A stretch of 64,000 nt of DNA from Commensalibacter papalotli (ex Servin-Garciduenas et al. 2014) (GTDB lineage Bacteria; Pseudomonadota; Alphaproteobacteria; Acetobacterales; Acetobacteraceae): positions 62,001 through 126,000 of the forward strand of contig NZ_ATSX01000002.1 in NCBI RefSeq assembly GCF_000527695.1, in the 5' to 3' direction. Numbering within the stretch: position 1 is the stretch's first letter; each line of letters begins with the position of its first letter. The notes under the pieces are model-generated. The model was not told the origin of the DNA and did no database searches. It was given only the letters and a program-made list of their open reading frames with translations. Position numbers and translations under genes: made by a program. This document shows positions 10,471 to 15,696 of this stretch, one piece after another.

Positions 10471-11148
10471 ATGAGCAAGAAAATTTCATTTGATCCATCC
10501 CTTATACGTTTCTCTGACCATTTTAAAGCATGGTTAGACAGCCTATTTATTGATCATTCAATTTTTAGACTGGTATGGACAAATTTTAACACCGTAATCC
10601 CAAATAAAGTATATCGTTGTAACCATCCAACGCCCAGCCGATTACGCAAATTTTCGCAAAAATATCATATAAAAACGATTGTTAATCTACGGGGTCAACG
10701 AGATTGTGGATCAGATGCTTTATCTCGTAATGCTGCAAAACAACTTGGGATAACACAGCTTGATTTACCATTTGAAAGCCGTGGCGCTCCTCATAAAGAT
10801 CGTATCTTGAATCTTGCTGCAATTTATCCAACACTCGAATTTCCAATTTTAATTCATTGTAAATCTGGCGCAGATCGTGCAGGTTTGGTCTCAGCTTTAA
10901 TCATGTTATTTGAGCATAAAACGATAGAAAAGGCTATTAGCCAACTTTCTTGGAAATATGGTCACTTTAAACAAGCCAAAACTGGAATTTTAGATCAGTT
11001 TTTTGTTTATTATTTTCAAGAAACCCACGGTAAAAGTAATTTTTTAACTTGGGTTCAACATCATTATCATGAAGATGCTTTAAGAGAACAATTTAAAGCA
11101 AAAAAAACTTTTTCTTTTATAACAGATAAAATTCTCCACAGAGAATAA
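10471..11148 (+). CDS. Dual-specificity/tyrosine phosphatase-like protein
   Basis: The 225-residue cytosolic protein carries the CX5R active-site loop HCKSGADRAG (C130, R136). Upstream is an NLRGQRDCGSD segment typical of bacterial DSP/PTP-like phosphatases. The substrate cannot be told; candidates are phosphoproteins, inositol phosphates or a lipid phosphate. It starts 18 bases after sdhB with an AAGGAT ribosome-binding site, so it is probably transcribed with the sdh operon. It ends 7 bases before the convergent XRE regulator gene. Confidence 0.8.
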   Translation: MSKKISFDPSLIRFSDHFKAWLDSLFIDHSIFRLVWTNFNTVIPNKVYRCNHPTPSRLRKFSQKYHIKTIVNLRGQRDCGSDALSRNAAKQLGITQLDLPFESRGAPHKDRILNLAAIYPTLEFPILIHCKSGADRAGLVSALIMLFEHKTIEKAISQLSWKYGHFKQAKTGILDQFFVYYFQETHGKSNFLTWVQHHYHEDALREQFKAKKTFSFITDKILHRE

Positions 11149-12144: not shown

Positions 12145-12933
12145 ATGTGGCCACCAATTGATCCACCAAAAAAAATACATTTCTTATCTGTAGCTAATCC
12201 AAAAGCGGTACAATACAAAAGAAACTTGATTAAAAAATATGGAAATTCAGATATTAATAATACAGAAGTCATCATTTGCATTGGTGGTGATGGTTTTATG
12301 CTTGAAACATTGCATAATTATCTGAATTATCAAATACCTATTTATAGTATTAATTTTGGCTCTGTTGGTTTTTTAACCAATCCCATCGTGACCTTAGAAA
12401 AAGATTTGCCACTTATTTTACATGAAGCCCAACCAACCTGTCTGCATCCTTTATCGATGACCGCTTATACGGCAGACGGGAAAACACATACAGCATTAGC
12501 CTTTAATGATATTTTCCTTTATCGACAAACGAGGCAGGCTGCAAAAATTCAAATTATAACTAATGATGAAATAAGATTATCTGAGTTAATTTGTGATGGC
12601 ATTATTGTATCAACTCCAGCCGGGTCAACAGCTTACAACTTATCAGCACATGGCCCTATTGTTCCGCTTAACTCAGGCCTTTTACCATTAACACCTATCT
12701 GTCCTTTCCGCCCTCGTCGATGGAGAGGGGCATTATTACCATCTAATACTTCAATTCAATTTTTAACAATTGAAGAACAAAAGCGTCCTATTGCAGCTGT
12801 TGCTGACTTTACAGAAATAAGAGATGTTACCAAAGTTTTTGTCAGAGAAAATCGATATATCAAATCTCAGATTTTATTTAATCCAGGACATGAATTATCC
12901 GATAGGATTGTAGCAGAACAATTTACTGCTTAA
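12145..12933 (+). CDS. nadK: NAD kinase
   Basis: NAD kinase phosphorylates NAD to NADP with ATP. The 262-residue product has the diagnostic GGDG motif (CIGGDGFMLETLH, about residue 50). The second conserved region reads STPAGSTAYNLSAHGPIV, and the conserved NDIFLYR segment is also present. A TGGAAAT stretch before the ATG can serve as ribosome-binding site. It is monocistronic, converging with the CtrA-like gene 3 bases downstream. Confidence 0.93.
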   Translation: MWPPIDPPKKIHFLSVANPKAVQYKRNLIKKYGNSDINNTEVIICIGGDGFMLETLHNYLNYQIPIYSINFGSVGFLTNPIVTLEKDLPLILHEAQPTCLHPLSMTAYTADGKTHTALAFNDIFLYRQTRQAAKIQIITNDEIRLSELICDGIIVSTPAGSTAYNLSAHGPIVPLNSGLLPLTPICPFRPRRWRGALLPSNTSIQFLTIEEQKRPIAAVADFTEIRDVTKVFVRENRYIKSQILFNPGHELSDRIVAEQFTA

Positions 12934-12936
12934 TAA

Positions 12937-13647
12937 TTATGCTTGATGCAAATTATCTTTTACAGCAGGGTTAGATTGACGGAAAATATAGCCCTGCCCC
13001 CACATGGTTGAAATCAAATCTCCTGCACCAGCATTTTGTAGCTTTTTTCTAAGCTTACAAACAAAGACATCAATAATTTTCATATCTGGCTCGTCTACAC
13101 CATCAGGATATAAATAATTTAAAATTGTTATTTTACTAATTAAAACACCACGTCTTAAAATCAACATTTCTAAAATGGCATATTCTTTACCCGTTAGACG
13201 AACAATATTACCATTCACGAAAACTTCACGTGTTTCTAAATTGATCTGTAATTGATCAACCTTGATAATACGATCAGCAACAACTTTATCTGAGCGTCTT
13301 AAAACAGCCTTACACCGAGCTAATAACTCTTGCGTCGCAAAAGGGATAACAACATAATCATCGACTCCAGCTTGAAATGCTTGCACTTTTAATTCTACGT
13401 CTGCTTTTTTAGAGACAACAAGCATGGGTAGTTTATCATTGATTGATCTTAACAACTTAATCGTCGCAAAAAACTGCTTGTCTAAAGCATCTAGCTCAAC
13501 AATAATCATATCATAATCATAAAACCGAGAGGCTGACAAAATCTGTGGATCATATCCGACACGATCGATAGAAAAACCAGTTGCCTTCAACTCTTGATAG
13601 AAATCATGTTCGGAAAAAAATATTTCGCCCATAAGAAGAACATGCAT
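12937..13647 (-). CDS. CtrA-like winged-helix regulator with a degenerate (D51E) receiver
   Basis: This is an OmpR-class two-domain regulator of 236 residues when started at the ATG at 13647, which has GGAG upstream. The DNA-binding domain is close to CtrA (LTGKEYAILEMLILRRG and MKIIDVFVCKLRKKL). The receiver aligns without gaps to CtrA but has lost phosphorylation residues. The acidic pair D8/D9 is E8/I9, the phospho-acceptor D51 is E51 (YDYDMIIVEL), and the conserved Lys of the TKPF motif is I101 (VIPF). It is therefore probably phosphorylation-independent, perhaps constitutively active. Whether a normal CtrA exists elsewhere cannot be seen. The longer frame to 13707 lacks comparable initiation signals. 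Confidence 0.85.
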   Translation of the reverse strand: MHVLLMGEIFFSEHDFYQELKATGFSIDRVGYDPQILSASRFYDYDMIIVELDALDKQFFATIKLLRSINDKLPMLVVSKKADVELKVQAFQAGVDDYVVIPFATQELLARCKAVLRRSDKVVADRIIKVDQLQINLETREVFVNGNIVRLTGKEYAILEMLILRRGVLISKITILNYLYPDGVDEPDMKIIDVFVCKLRKKLQNAGAGDLISTMWGQGYIFRQSNPAVKDNLHQA

Positions 13648-13799
13648 TATATCTACTCCAGATAGTTCTTTATAATTAATTACTACCATAGGTTGAAAAT
13701 AAATCAATTAAAACTTAATAAAGTTATAATAAATATGAATCTATTATTTATAGAGTATTATTAAGGTTACTTCATAACCTCAATAATACTCGTTAAGAA

Positions 13800-14246
13800 T
13801 TAACTTTTTCCAAATATTTTTTTAATAAATTGCCAAATAAATCCTCGTAGATAACCACCTAAAGGACCACTAAGTGCACCTATTAATGCTGTAATAGCCA
13901 ACGAATTCCGTAATTCTTTTAAATTATGATTACGAACAATTTTTGCCTCAATCTCTGCCTCACCAATTCTTTGTCTGAATGCGCACAAAAATAAAAGCAA
14001 CATACATACAAGATCAAAAGCAAAAACAATTAAAGATGTTCCCAAAAATCCTGTATGAAGCAAACTCAAACAAAGTGCTGCCACAACGGCATGAATAGAA
14101 ATCAAAGCAAATAAACCAAAAAGAGCTCCAACCAAACATAAAATAACTTGCTTGCTAATTCTAATTGACTTTTTCTTAAGAAGCATAACCTCAGCATCGA
14201 CTGCGGCCTTACCGTATTCAGCAATCTTCATGGTTTTTAAAATCAC
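13800..14246 (-). CDS. Phage-holin-family (DUF1469-like) membrane protein
   Basis: The 148-residue protein has two long hydrophobic segments (about residues 33-60 and 66-90) followed by an amphipathic tail and a C-terminal hydrophobic stretch. This layout resembles the small membrane proteins classed as putative Actinobacteriophage holin superfamily III (DUF1469). These are usually cellular, not phage, genes found next to DUF883 genes, as here. An ATG five codons later (14231) is an alternative start. The function is unknown and probably envelope-related. Confidence 0.65.
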   Translation of the reverse strand: MILKTMKIAEYGKAAVDAEVMLLKKKSIRISKQVILCLVGALFGLFALISIHAVVAALCLSLLHTGFLGTSLIVFAFDLVCMLLLFLCAFRQRIGEAEIEAKIVRNHNLKELRNSLAITALIGALSGPLGGYLRGFIWQFIKKIFGKS

Positions 14247-14264: not shown

Positions 14265-14546
14265 TTAACGAATAACTCTTCCTAATAAATACCCAATGAC
14301 GATAGATAGAACAATAGCAATTAAAGGCTTTGATTGAACTTTATCAGAAACGTGCTTAATTTGATGATCGGTCATTTCTTTTGTATTGTGAACAACCTGA
14401 TCAGCTTTATCCGCTGCTTGAACAATTGCTGGTGTTACACGATCGTTTAGCAACTCTTCAACTTGATTTTTCAAAGATTTGATTTCTTCTTGTGCATTTT
14501 TTTGCAATGCAGCCACTTTTTTCTTATCTTTTTTACTAAAAAACAT
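14265..14546 (-). CDS. DUF883 (ElaB/YqjD-type) membrane-anchored protein
   Basis: This short protein of 93 residues has a charged coiled-coil-like N-terminal part (VAALQKNAQEEIKSLKNQVE). A single C-terminal transmembrane helix ends in GYLLGRVIR, the typical DUF883 C-terminus. In E. coli such proteins are inner-membrane, ribosome-associating and stationary-phase induced. The start at 14546 is chosen because AAAGGAAAC lies 7 bases upstream. The longer frame to 14582 lacks this. It forms an operon with the holin-like gene 19 bases downstream. Confidence 0.75.
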   Translation of the reverse strand: MFFSKKDKKKVAALQKNAQEEIKSLKNQVEELLNDRVTPAIVQAADKADQVVHNTKEMTDHQIKHVSDKVQSKPLIAIVLSIVIGYLLGRVIR

Positions 14547-14757
14547 TGCCGTTTCCTTTATATTGAATACTGAAAATCTCAATTACTTACAACAAAACAC
14601 TCATTACAATTATCTTACGAACCTAGTATAACTATATTTTAATAATTTATATATAAAAAATGAATGTTTCTTTGTTTTTTTATAAATTAATTTTACATAC
14701 TAACATAAACAATTTATAGTTTAAAAATTATTTTCACGTAATATTTATAAACTTTAC

Positions 14758-15696
14758 ATGTTCTCATATCGATTTTTGCTTTTATTTTTAGTTTCAATAA
14801 TATTAACCCCTTCTTTTTGCTTTGGAAATACCAGAGAAAAAAGAGCGAGTTTAGGTGTATTAAATGGTTATCAATTTTATTTTAAAAAATATTCAAACAG
14901 ATATCATTTCATCACTTGGGATGGTAATATTCAGACACTACAACAAGCACTTTCATTAAATAATAAAATTATAGATCTTTTGCTATTAAACAAAAAAACA
15001 GCAGAACAGGCATGTAATCTAGGATTACTAATACCTCTTCATGATGATTTACTATCGTCTAATAATAAACAATGTGATTTTCAAACATTCACTGATCATA
15101 TTGCTCTTGCATGGGATACACAAAAATTACATTTTAACCCTACTTGGAAAGATTTTTGGAATATCACACAATATCCAGGAAAAAGAGGATTACAAAAAGA
15201 CGCACTTAGTGCTTTATCCATCGCGCTATTAGCTGATGGGGTCTCTTCTGAGGATGTTATAGAGGTTTTATCGACCCCATCGGGGATTCTACGCGCTTTT
15301 AAAAAATTAAATCAGCTTCGTCCTTATATTGTTTGGTGGACAACTCCCAATGAAGCTAATTTTTTATTATATAAAAACCAAGTATTAATGACCAGCGCCT
15401 CTGTCCTAAGTATCAATGCGTTTCAACAACAGCACCCATTATCACACTTTCAATTTCAACATCAAAATACCGTTGAAAGTCCCATTGTATTAAGTATTCC
15501 TGTTACTATACAGACACATCGAATTAAAATGATTAATGATTTACTAAAAACACATCCTTTACATCCATTTTCCACTTCTAATCCAAAACATCGCATATGG
15601 CACACAAGCATTCCACAAGAATCCATCTCCCCTCAACAATCTTCTGTTTCTTTAGATGAAATATTTGATGAGTGGCTTCATTTAACAAAACAATAA
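14758..15696 (+). CDS. Orphan extracellular solute-binding protein
   Basis: The 312-residue exported protein has an N-terminal signal peptide (hydrophobic residues 6-20, likely cleavage after CFG). The fold signature resembles PotD/PotF-like polyamine-type binding proteins: LLLNKKTAEQACNLGLLIPL, then AWDTQKL, then WKDFWNITQYPGKRGL. No ABC permease or ATPase gene is adjacent. It would have to work with a distant transporter or act as a scavenger or sensor. The ligand cannot be assigned. Confidence 0.6.
   Translation: MFSYRFLLLFLVSIILTPSFCFGNTREKRASLGVLNGYQFYFKKYSNRYHFITWDGNIQTLQQALSLNNKIIDLLLLNKKTAEQACNLGLLIPLHDDLLSSNNKQCDFQTFTDHIALAWDTQKLHFNPTWKDFWNITQYPGKRGLQKDALSALSIALLADGVSSEDVIEVLSTPSGILRAFKKLNQLRPYIVWWTTPNEANFLLYKNQVLMTSASVLSINAFQQQHPLSHFQFQHQNTVESPIVLSIPVTIQTHRIKMINDLLKTHPLHPFSTSNPKHRIWHTSIPQESISPQQSSVSLDEIFDEWLHLTKQ

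Follow-up and report, generated by a model that had tools for sequence, protein, structure and literature searches.

Among bacterial master regulators gated by phosphate, CtrA serves as the standard example, and the known aspartyl chemistry of its receiver requires Asp51, an acidic pair and Lys101. In Caulobacter, the Ala-Ala tail of CtrA is its ClpXP degron, and the delta3-omega modification removes the C-terminus of the protein. An allele combining this modification with a glutamate at position 51, ctrA(D51E)delta3-omega, has been described as 'stable and active' (PMC5189948), in agreement with a preliminary description of the gene studied below, which had pointed to D51E as an active-mimic allele in Caulobacter. 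Phosphate can also be dispensed with altogether, as in the pseudo-receivers of ChxR and HP1043, which are described as dimerising and binding DNA phosphate-free via alpha4-beta5-alpha5 (PMC3960148).

Loss of genes of the CckA-ChpT phosphorelay is partly known as well. Rickettsiales (Wolbachia, Anaplasma, Ehrlichia) keep CtrA where two reports record no ChpT; these bacteria still have CckA, which is regarded there as the partner of CtrA (PMC4426382, PMC2877005). Brilli et al. (2010) describe a Rhodospirillales cluster whose relay is degenerate, lacking chpT and with cckA reported in part of it (PMC2877005), and a survey gives ctrA, gcrA and ccrM in 72-82% of Rhodospirillales genomes and chpT, cckA and divL in 27-36%, with the caveat that detection may be a problem (PMC8116508). 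Since these two sources already document relay-gene loss in part, what appears to be new is its coupling to a natural D51E; among the open-licence matches listed, no paper addresses loss of Asp51, D51E or loss of ChpT in acetic acid bacteria by name.

The gene considered here lies in a 64,000-nucleotide stretch of the Commensalibacter papalotli genome (hereafter the window; 36.8% G+C). The genome assembly, of 12 contigs and 2.33 Mb in total, has a completeness rating of 100%, and the eight congeners we sampled have genomes of 1.9-2.6 Mb; published figures are 1.99-2.51 Mb and 36.7-37.7% G+C for Commensalibacter species and 2.35 Mb and 36.68% for C. papalotli (PMC10149009). Positions 12937-13647 hold, on the minus strand, 236 codons and a stop, with the ATG start at 13647, and the forward reading of the same interval is full of stops. 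The 236-residue product is an OmpR/PhoB-type regulator that shares with the CtrA of Caulobacter and other Alphaproteobacteria a receiver alignable without gaps, the order of its domains and the recognition helix. Its receiver (REC) domain (residues 1-118; 13294-13647, minus strand) has a predicted intact receiver fold, and its winged-helix DNA-binding domain (residues 127-225; 12973-13269, minus strand) has a conserved recognition helix.

Against this background of similarity, with residues numbered as in the CtrA of Caulobacter sp. BK020 (L079), the usual features of a phosphorylated receiver are missing. On the minus strand, codons 8-9 (13621-13626) specify Glu-Ile where CtrA usually has its metal-binding Asp-Asp, codon 51 (GAG, 13495-13497) specifies Glu in place of the phosphoacceptor Asp, and codon 101 (ATC, 13345-13347) specifies Ile in place of the catalytic Lys, such that VIPF replaces TKPF; Ser79 and Tyr98 are retained. 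The C-terminal Ala-Ala is also absent, and the loop preceding the recognition helix is altered. The alignment thus bears out the preliminary description of the receiver, including its coordinates and its proposal that a protein with E51, E8/I9 and I101 is unable to take phosphate by the known chemistry. Its view of the DNA-binding domain as CtrA-like also holds: the stretch KIIDVF(I/V)CKLRKKL of the recognition helix is retained, and the best NCBIfam model for the protein is a CtrA model, NF045991, which scores 212 bits and does not reach its cut-off of 350. No other CtrA model matched the protein; this one is a Rhodobacterales model by name and does not define CtrA as a whole.

The unusual residues are characteristic of the genus. 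Glu51 and Ile101 occur together in eight of the nine genus genomes (our own included), and Asn51 and Ala101 in the ninth. Both GAA and GAG are used for Glu51 across these eight, and both ATC and ATT for Ile101, which rules out sequencing error at the key codons. All nine genomes therefore carry a pseudo-receiver that has lost Asp51 and Lys101 along with the second Asp of the acidic pair.

The preliminary description had taken the gene for a paralogue of the cell-cycle regulator and had proposed a search for a second, intact ctrA. There is none in the genome, where the next match reaches 62 bits at 30% identity, and a plasmid DNA search gave no match. Exactly one ctrA match per genome was found, at the search threshold, in all nine genus genomes, with intact frames throughout. 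In addition, the gene order of the window matches that of the ctrA locus of a basal relative (G063), whose CtrA has Asp51. In G063 the order is a solute-binding gene, two small genes, fliJ, fliI, ctrA and an NAD kinase gene, the names fliI and fliJ being given from sequence and position alone, and the window has the same order minus fliJ and fliI. Here the solute-binding protein gene (14758-15696, plus strand), which is also found in the syntenic blocks of G063 and G002, is followed by genes for a 105-residue protein (14265-14582, minus strand) and a 148-residue protein with hydrophobic stretches recognised by eye (13800-14246, minus strand), both of them without a Pfam match and syntenic with G063. 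Beyond ctrA lies the convergent NAD kinase gene (12145-12933, plus strand), which adjoins ctrA in G063 and in the three congeners viewed. Because gene order matches the locus of the basal relative and there is one copy per genome, the window's gene is the single CtrA of its genome, an orthologue, and the paralogue reading is rejected. As a separate observation, a phosphatase-like gene lies near the NAD kinase gene, at 10471-11148 (Pfam Y_phosphatase3, with PTP-NADK just above the cut-off), and Pfam includes a family in which that phosphatase is fused to NAD kinase.

To place these residues in a wider context, we compared 95 CtrA loci, from 94 family genomes and one Caulobacter. Position 51, readable in 93 of them, is D in 57, E in 27, R in 4, A in 2, and N, H and S in one each. 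The 27 with Glu51 are eight of the nine genomes of the window's genus, the ninth (G001, basal in the genus) having Asn51, and 19 genomes outside it, in which residue 101 is Lys (16 genomes) or Arg (3). Within the 95-locus sample, the combination of Glu51 with a hydrophobic residue at 101 is confined to the window's genus. A separate search, covering the best 80 of at least 589 relatives with titled records, gave D in 76, E in 3 and N in 1 at this position. Glu51 belongs here to Acetobacter musti, Novacetimonas maltaceti and Gluconacetobacter tumulicola, and Asn51 to Acetobacter garciniae; D51E accompanied by Lys or Arg at 101 is known in named members of Acetobacter, Novacetimonas and Gluconacetobacter, and it is on the named species of this search that the label 'acetic acid bacteria' for a clade rests. 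Given Glu51 in 19 other genomes and three named species, D51E is found across acetic acid bacteria, as judged from these sequences, and the window's genus represents a further step. D51E as a genus-specific trait is accordingly rejected, and the special standing that the substitution had been given in this gene does not survive the comparison.

We next consider the relay itself. A family-specific ChpT profile run over 80 chosen genomes gave bimodal scores, with 28 genomes at E 3.6e-28 or better and the other 52 no better than 1.4e-11; the weaker matches, among those listed, sit inside frames of at least 393 residues. ChpT was found in none of the nine genus genomes, either with this profile or in a Pfam search of 74 genomes. 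With a CckA core profile, 23 of the 28 ChpT-bearing genomes score at least 324 bits; the other 52 genomes all stay below this mark, and the next score down is 295 bits. One further ChpT-bearing genome (G011), at 293 bits, has its candidate inside the CckA clade of a kinase tree (support 100/99), and in four others (G018, G032, G059, G124) no clear whole CckA was found. Only 33 CckA candidates were scored in large genomes; in the nine genus genomes every first-look candidate was scored, and at E 1e-75 none of the nine yielded a CckA. In our genome the two kinases that most resemble CckA, L183 (REC-PAS-kinase) and L185 (PAS-kinase-REC, its REC scoring below Pfam's cut-off), both fall outside the CckA clade, and the kinase tree does not support L183 as a diverged CckA. 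The expectation that this CtrA is cut off from CckA/ChpT control is consistent with these results, as neither ChpT nor a CckA-clade kinase was found in its genome. The cckA reported by Brilli et al. for part of their cluster counts against relay loss (PMC2877005). In retaining CckA, Rickettsiales differ from the window's genus.

L183 (C3:194833-198192 of our genome) has the architecture REC-PAS-HisKA-HATPase there. In the kinase tree it groups with L254 of G001 and others in a clade whose nine rows all come from genomes lacking ChpT. It is possible that this clade constitutes a replacement sensor. A rival reading is that CtrA is still phosphorylated, on another residue or by another kinase such as L183, which is the genome's best match to the CckA model and has its close kin in ChpT-less genomes. 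The only genome sampled from the neighbouring genus (G021; CtrA locus L205) is also relevant here, since it combines a kinase of the L183 clade with a complete receiver (DD, D51, K101) and no ChpT or CckA match, and another kinase may serve CtrA in that organism. In the window's genus, however, none of the nine genomes retains Asp51, Lys101 or the second Asp of the acidic pair, and we consider continued phosphorylation there very improbable. Orthologues with a normal Asp51 and Lys101 in sister species, which the preliminary description had set against its own reading, are thus absent throughout the genus and present in the single genome sampled from the neighbouring genus.

Across the family, loss of Asp51 occurs only in sampled genomes that lack ChpT. 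Position 51 is readable in 73 of the 80 genomes (five have no CtrA at the usual score and two have a truncated gene). Asp51 is present in all 27 readable ChpT-bearing genomes, one of which (G144) has a weak CtrA match, and has been lost in 36 of the 46 ChpT-less genomes (D 10, E 27, R 4, A 2, and N, H and S one each). Fisher's test gives p 1.6e-10 over 68 genomes with kinship ignored, a rough estimate from branch lengths gives p about 0.03, and a comparison of independent pairs, which are too few, is not significant. A one-directional association between the loss of ChpT and that of Asp51 is therefore plausible but not proven. In a GyrB tree of 75 rows (65 in a careful rerun, with 10 close relatives dropped), the window's genus belongs to a ChpT-less clade of 33 rows (100/99), which also holds 18 of the 19 other Glu51 genomes or their dropped relatives; outside it lies G136, a Glu51 genome available as a draft of 300 contigs. 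Asp51 recurs inside the Glu51 clade, in G067, G038, G053 and G021, either by reversal or by retention.

A second ChpT-less clade (G123, G194, G151, G207, G031; loci L167-L171) has Arg or Ser at position 51, Ala79 and no Lys101. It is placed among ChpT-bearing lineages in the GyrB tree (87/85 with its neighbour group), and apparently represents an independent loss. The receiver of this clade diverges much faster than its DNA-binding domain.

The loss of active-site residues might be taken to mean that the receiver, or the whole protein, is decaying. One such possibility is that the gene is being lost, and that CtrA survives for a short while as a relic once relay and flagellum have gone. A search of 46 genomes recovered FlhA from 24, none of them among the nine of the genus, such that CtrA is retained here without it, and a flagellar job for this CtrA is unlikely. 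A fliI-like gene stands beside ctrA in 9 of the 20 neighbourhoods viewed and is gone from the locus in the window and in the three congeners viewed, and five ChpT-less genomes of the family (G037, G171, G132, G155, G172) have no CtrA match above paralogue level, as might be expected if the gene can be discarded. Patterns of substitution argue otherwise. In the genus (36 possible pairs), dN/dS of the receiver is 0.006-0.21 in the seven computable of eight pairs, the eighth being saturated, and that of the DNA-binding domain is 0.01-0.22 in seven of eight pairs, with 0.55 for the near-identical pair G006/G008, which has very few changes; synonymous change is near saturation in several pairs. The ratio of receiver to DNA-binding divergence stands at 1.20 for the genus and 1.26 for ChpT-bearing genomes, compared with 1.66 for Glu51 genomes of other genera and 2.46 for the Arg/Ser51 clade. 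By these measures both domains are under purifying selection and, because the ratio in the genus is no higher than in ChpT-bearing genomes, constraint on the receiver is not relaxed. With low dN/dS, nine intact frames and an unraised divergence ratio, neither decay of an inert receiver nor a passing relic is expected; decay as the main reading is rejected, and we see little chance that the gene is simply being lost.

Site by site, the receiver is less well kept: of the positions conserved in ChpT-bearing genomes, only 21 of 44 in the receiver are unchanged in all nine genus genomes, against 33 of 50 in the DNA-binding domain (including nearly the whole recognition helix). The residues K87, D96, D97, E107, R111 and R118, which we take to form the alpha4-beta5-alpha5 dimer face of the OmpR/PhoB family, are retained in all nine, and the predicted dimer face of the receiver thus appears intact. 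A structural model built from 58 sequences has a pLDDT of 89 and both expected folds, and a fold search matched its receiver to those of KdpE and PmrA, with Z near 17 and rmsd of 1.8-2.4.

A different explanation of this constraint is that the receiver has become a sensor, in which dimerisation or DNA binding is switched when a small molecule or a partner protein occupies the former active-site pocket. This idea draws on the same low dN/dS and unraised divergence ratio, and on the motif LLMG(E/D)xFF beside the old active site, a set of conserved residues peculiar to the genus and present in all nine genomes; ligand-binding pseudo-receivers are said often to use regions that differ from those of receivers (PMC12632262). 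On the other hand, dimerisation alone also explains the constraint, and neither the gene neighbourhood nor the fold searches point to a ligand or partner. The latter returned ordinary OmpR/PhoB relatives with no ligand-binding relative prominent, which is no evidence of absence. We regard a sensing role as rather unlikely, though better placed than continued phosphorylation or gradual loss.

The DNA-binding domain, although conserved overall, carries changes of its own in the genus, which the preliminary description had overlooked. The loop before the recognition helix reads PDGVDEPD instead of GGxDEPE, with a one-residue insertion in six of the nine genomes, and in the wing Arg is replaced by Gln at alignment position 217 in eight of nine. 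The loop is altered in the window's genus and unchanged in the 18 Glu51 relatives compared. In the OmpR/PhoB family this loop can contact RNA polymerase, and so its alteration suggests that contacts with DNA or polymerase may differ from those of usual CtrA and that activation may differ from DNA binding.

Upstream of ctrA (13648-13799) there is no exact TTAA-N7-TTAA within 330 bases and a single GANTC within 300 bases, and an exact TTAA-N7-TTAA is found upstream of ctrA in one of the nine genus genomes. The form TTAACC-N(2-8)-TTAA is not in excess in our genome, its 136 matches falling short of the 158 obtained with the reversed control. Among the 100 matches listed of the 136, spacings N2 to N8 number 13, 23, 12, 6, 25, 13 and 8; there is thus no peak at the canonical N5, which is the rarest spacing, and a codon effect may account for the peaks at N3 and N6. 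In several Glu51 relatives, and more weakly in the window's genus, a short motif of the form CAACyTnnGGTAGTAA can be discerned by eye some 30-70 bases upstream of the ctrA start, as a possible promoter or operator element (loci L017, L018, L020, L023, L024 and L008-L011).

These observations lead us to favour, with reasonable though far from complete confidence, the view that the single ctrA of this genome has turned into a phosphorylation-independent regulator that has outlived both its phosphorelay and the flagellum. In the sequence of events that we envisage, an ancestor of acetic acid bacteria would have lost the CckA-ChpT relay, and CtrA would then have been freed from phosphorylation, first through the acidic D51E with Lys101 mostly kept, a natural state resembling the active mimic. 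In the window's genus the receiver would subsequently have been rebuilt, with the Asp/Lys/Mg chemistry no longer needed. The protein would most likely form a standing dimer via its alpha4-beta5-alpha5 face and bind DNA whenever it is present, and control would be exerted through the level of synthesis or degradation, or through contacts of the altered pocket, instead of through phosphate. As far as sequence comparison can tell, this CtrA is probably constitutively DNA-binding.

The parallel with the Caulobacter allele is instructive but partial. Like ctrA(D51E)delta3-omega, the window's CtrA combines Glu51 with the absence of a C-terminal Ala-Ala, which is found in none of the nine genus genomes, in 14 of the 27 readable ChpT-bearing genomes and in 5 of the 19 other Glu51 genomes. 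It differs from that allele in being natural and in having lost Lys101 and the acidic pair as well. Glu51 may mimic phosphate together with Lys101 in the relatives that carry both. In the window's genus this phosphomimetic logic is weaker, because Lys101 is also gone, and without Lys101 and the acidic pair Glu51 may fail to mimic phosphate. Moreover, the basal G001 has Asn51, indicating that a negative charge at this position is not essential. For both reasons, charge mimicry by Glu51 appears doubtful in the genus. The best reading is instead by analogy with ChxR and HP1043, regulators of other lineages: the window's CtrA may work as they do, yet is CtrA by descent, and it retains typical dimer-face residues where the receiver dimer interface of ChxR is atypical.

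A fuller evolutionary account can be offered more tentatively, and we place it slightly on the doubtful side. Acetic acid bacteria would have fixed D51E after loss of the relay, and the insect-gut lineage would have rebuilt the receiver as a selected dimerisation or sensing module governing a non-flagellar regulon. Separate losses of the relay in the family (the Arg51/Ser51 clade and perhaps G136) would have been accompanied by separate losses of Asp51.

In a protein that exemplifies control by phosphate, evolution seems to have retained the regulator while discarding its gate, and many species serve as replicates. This makes it possible to test what role an always-on CtrA plays, whether D51E offers a natural way around the loss of the relay, and what is gained from a rewired receiver. 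A CtrA phosphorelay should probably also be assigned with care when genomes of acetic acid bacteria, which include industrial ones, are annotated.
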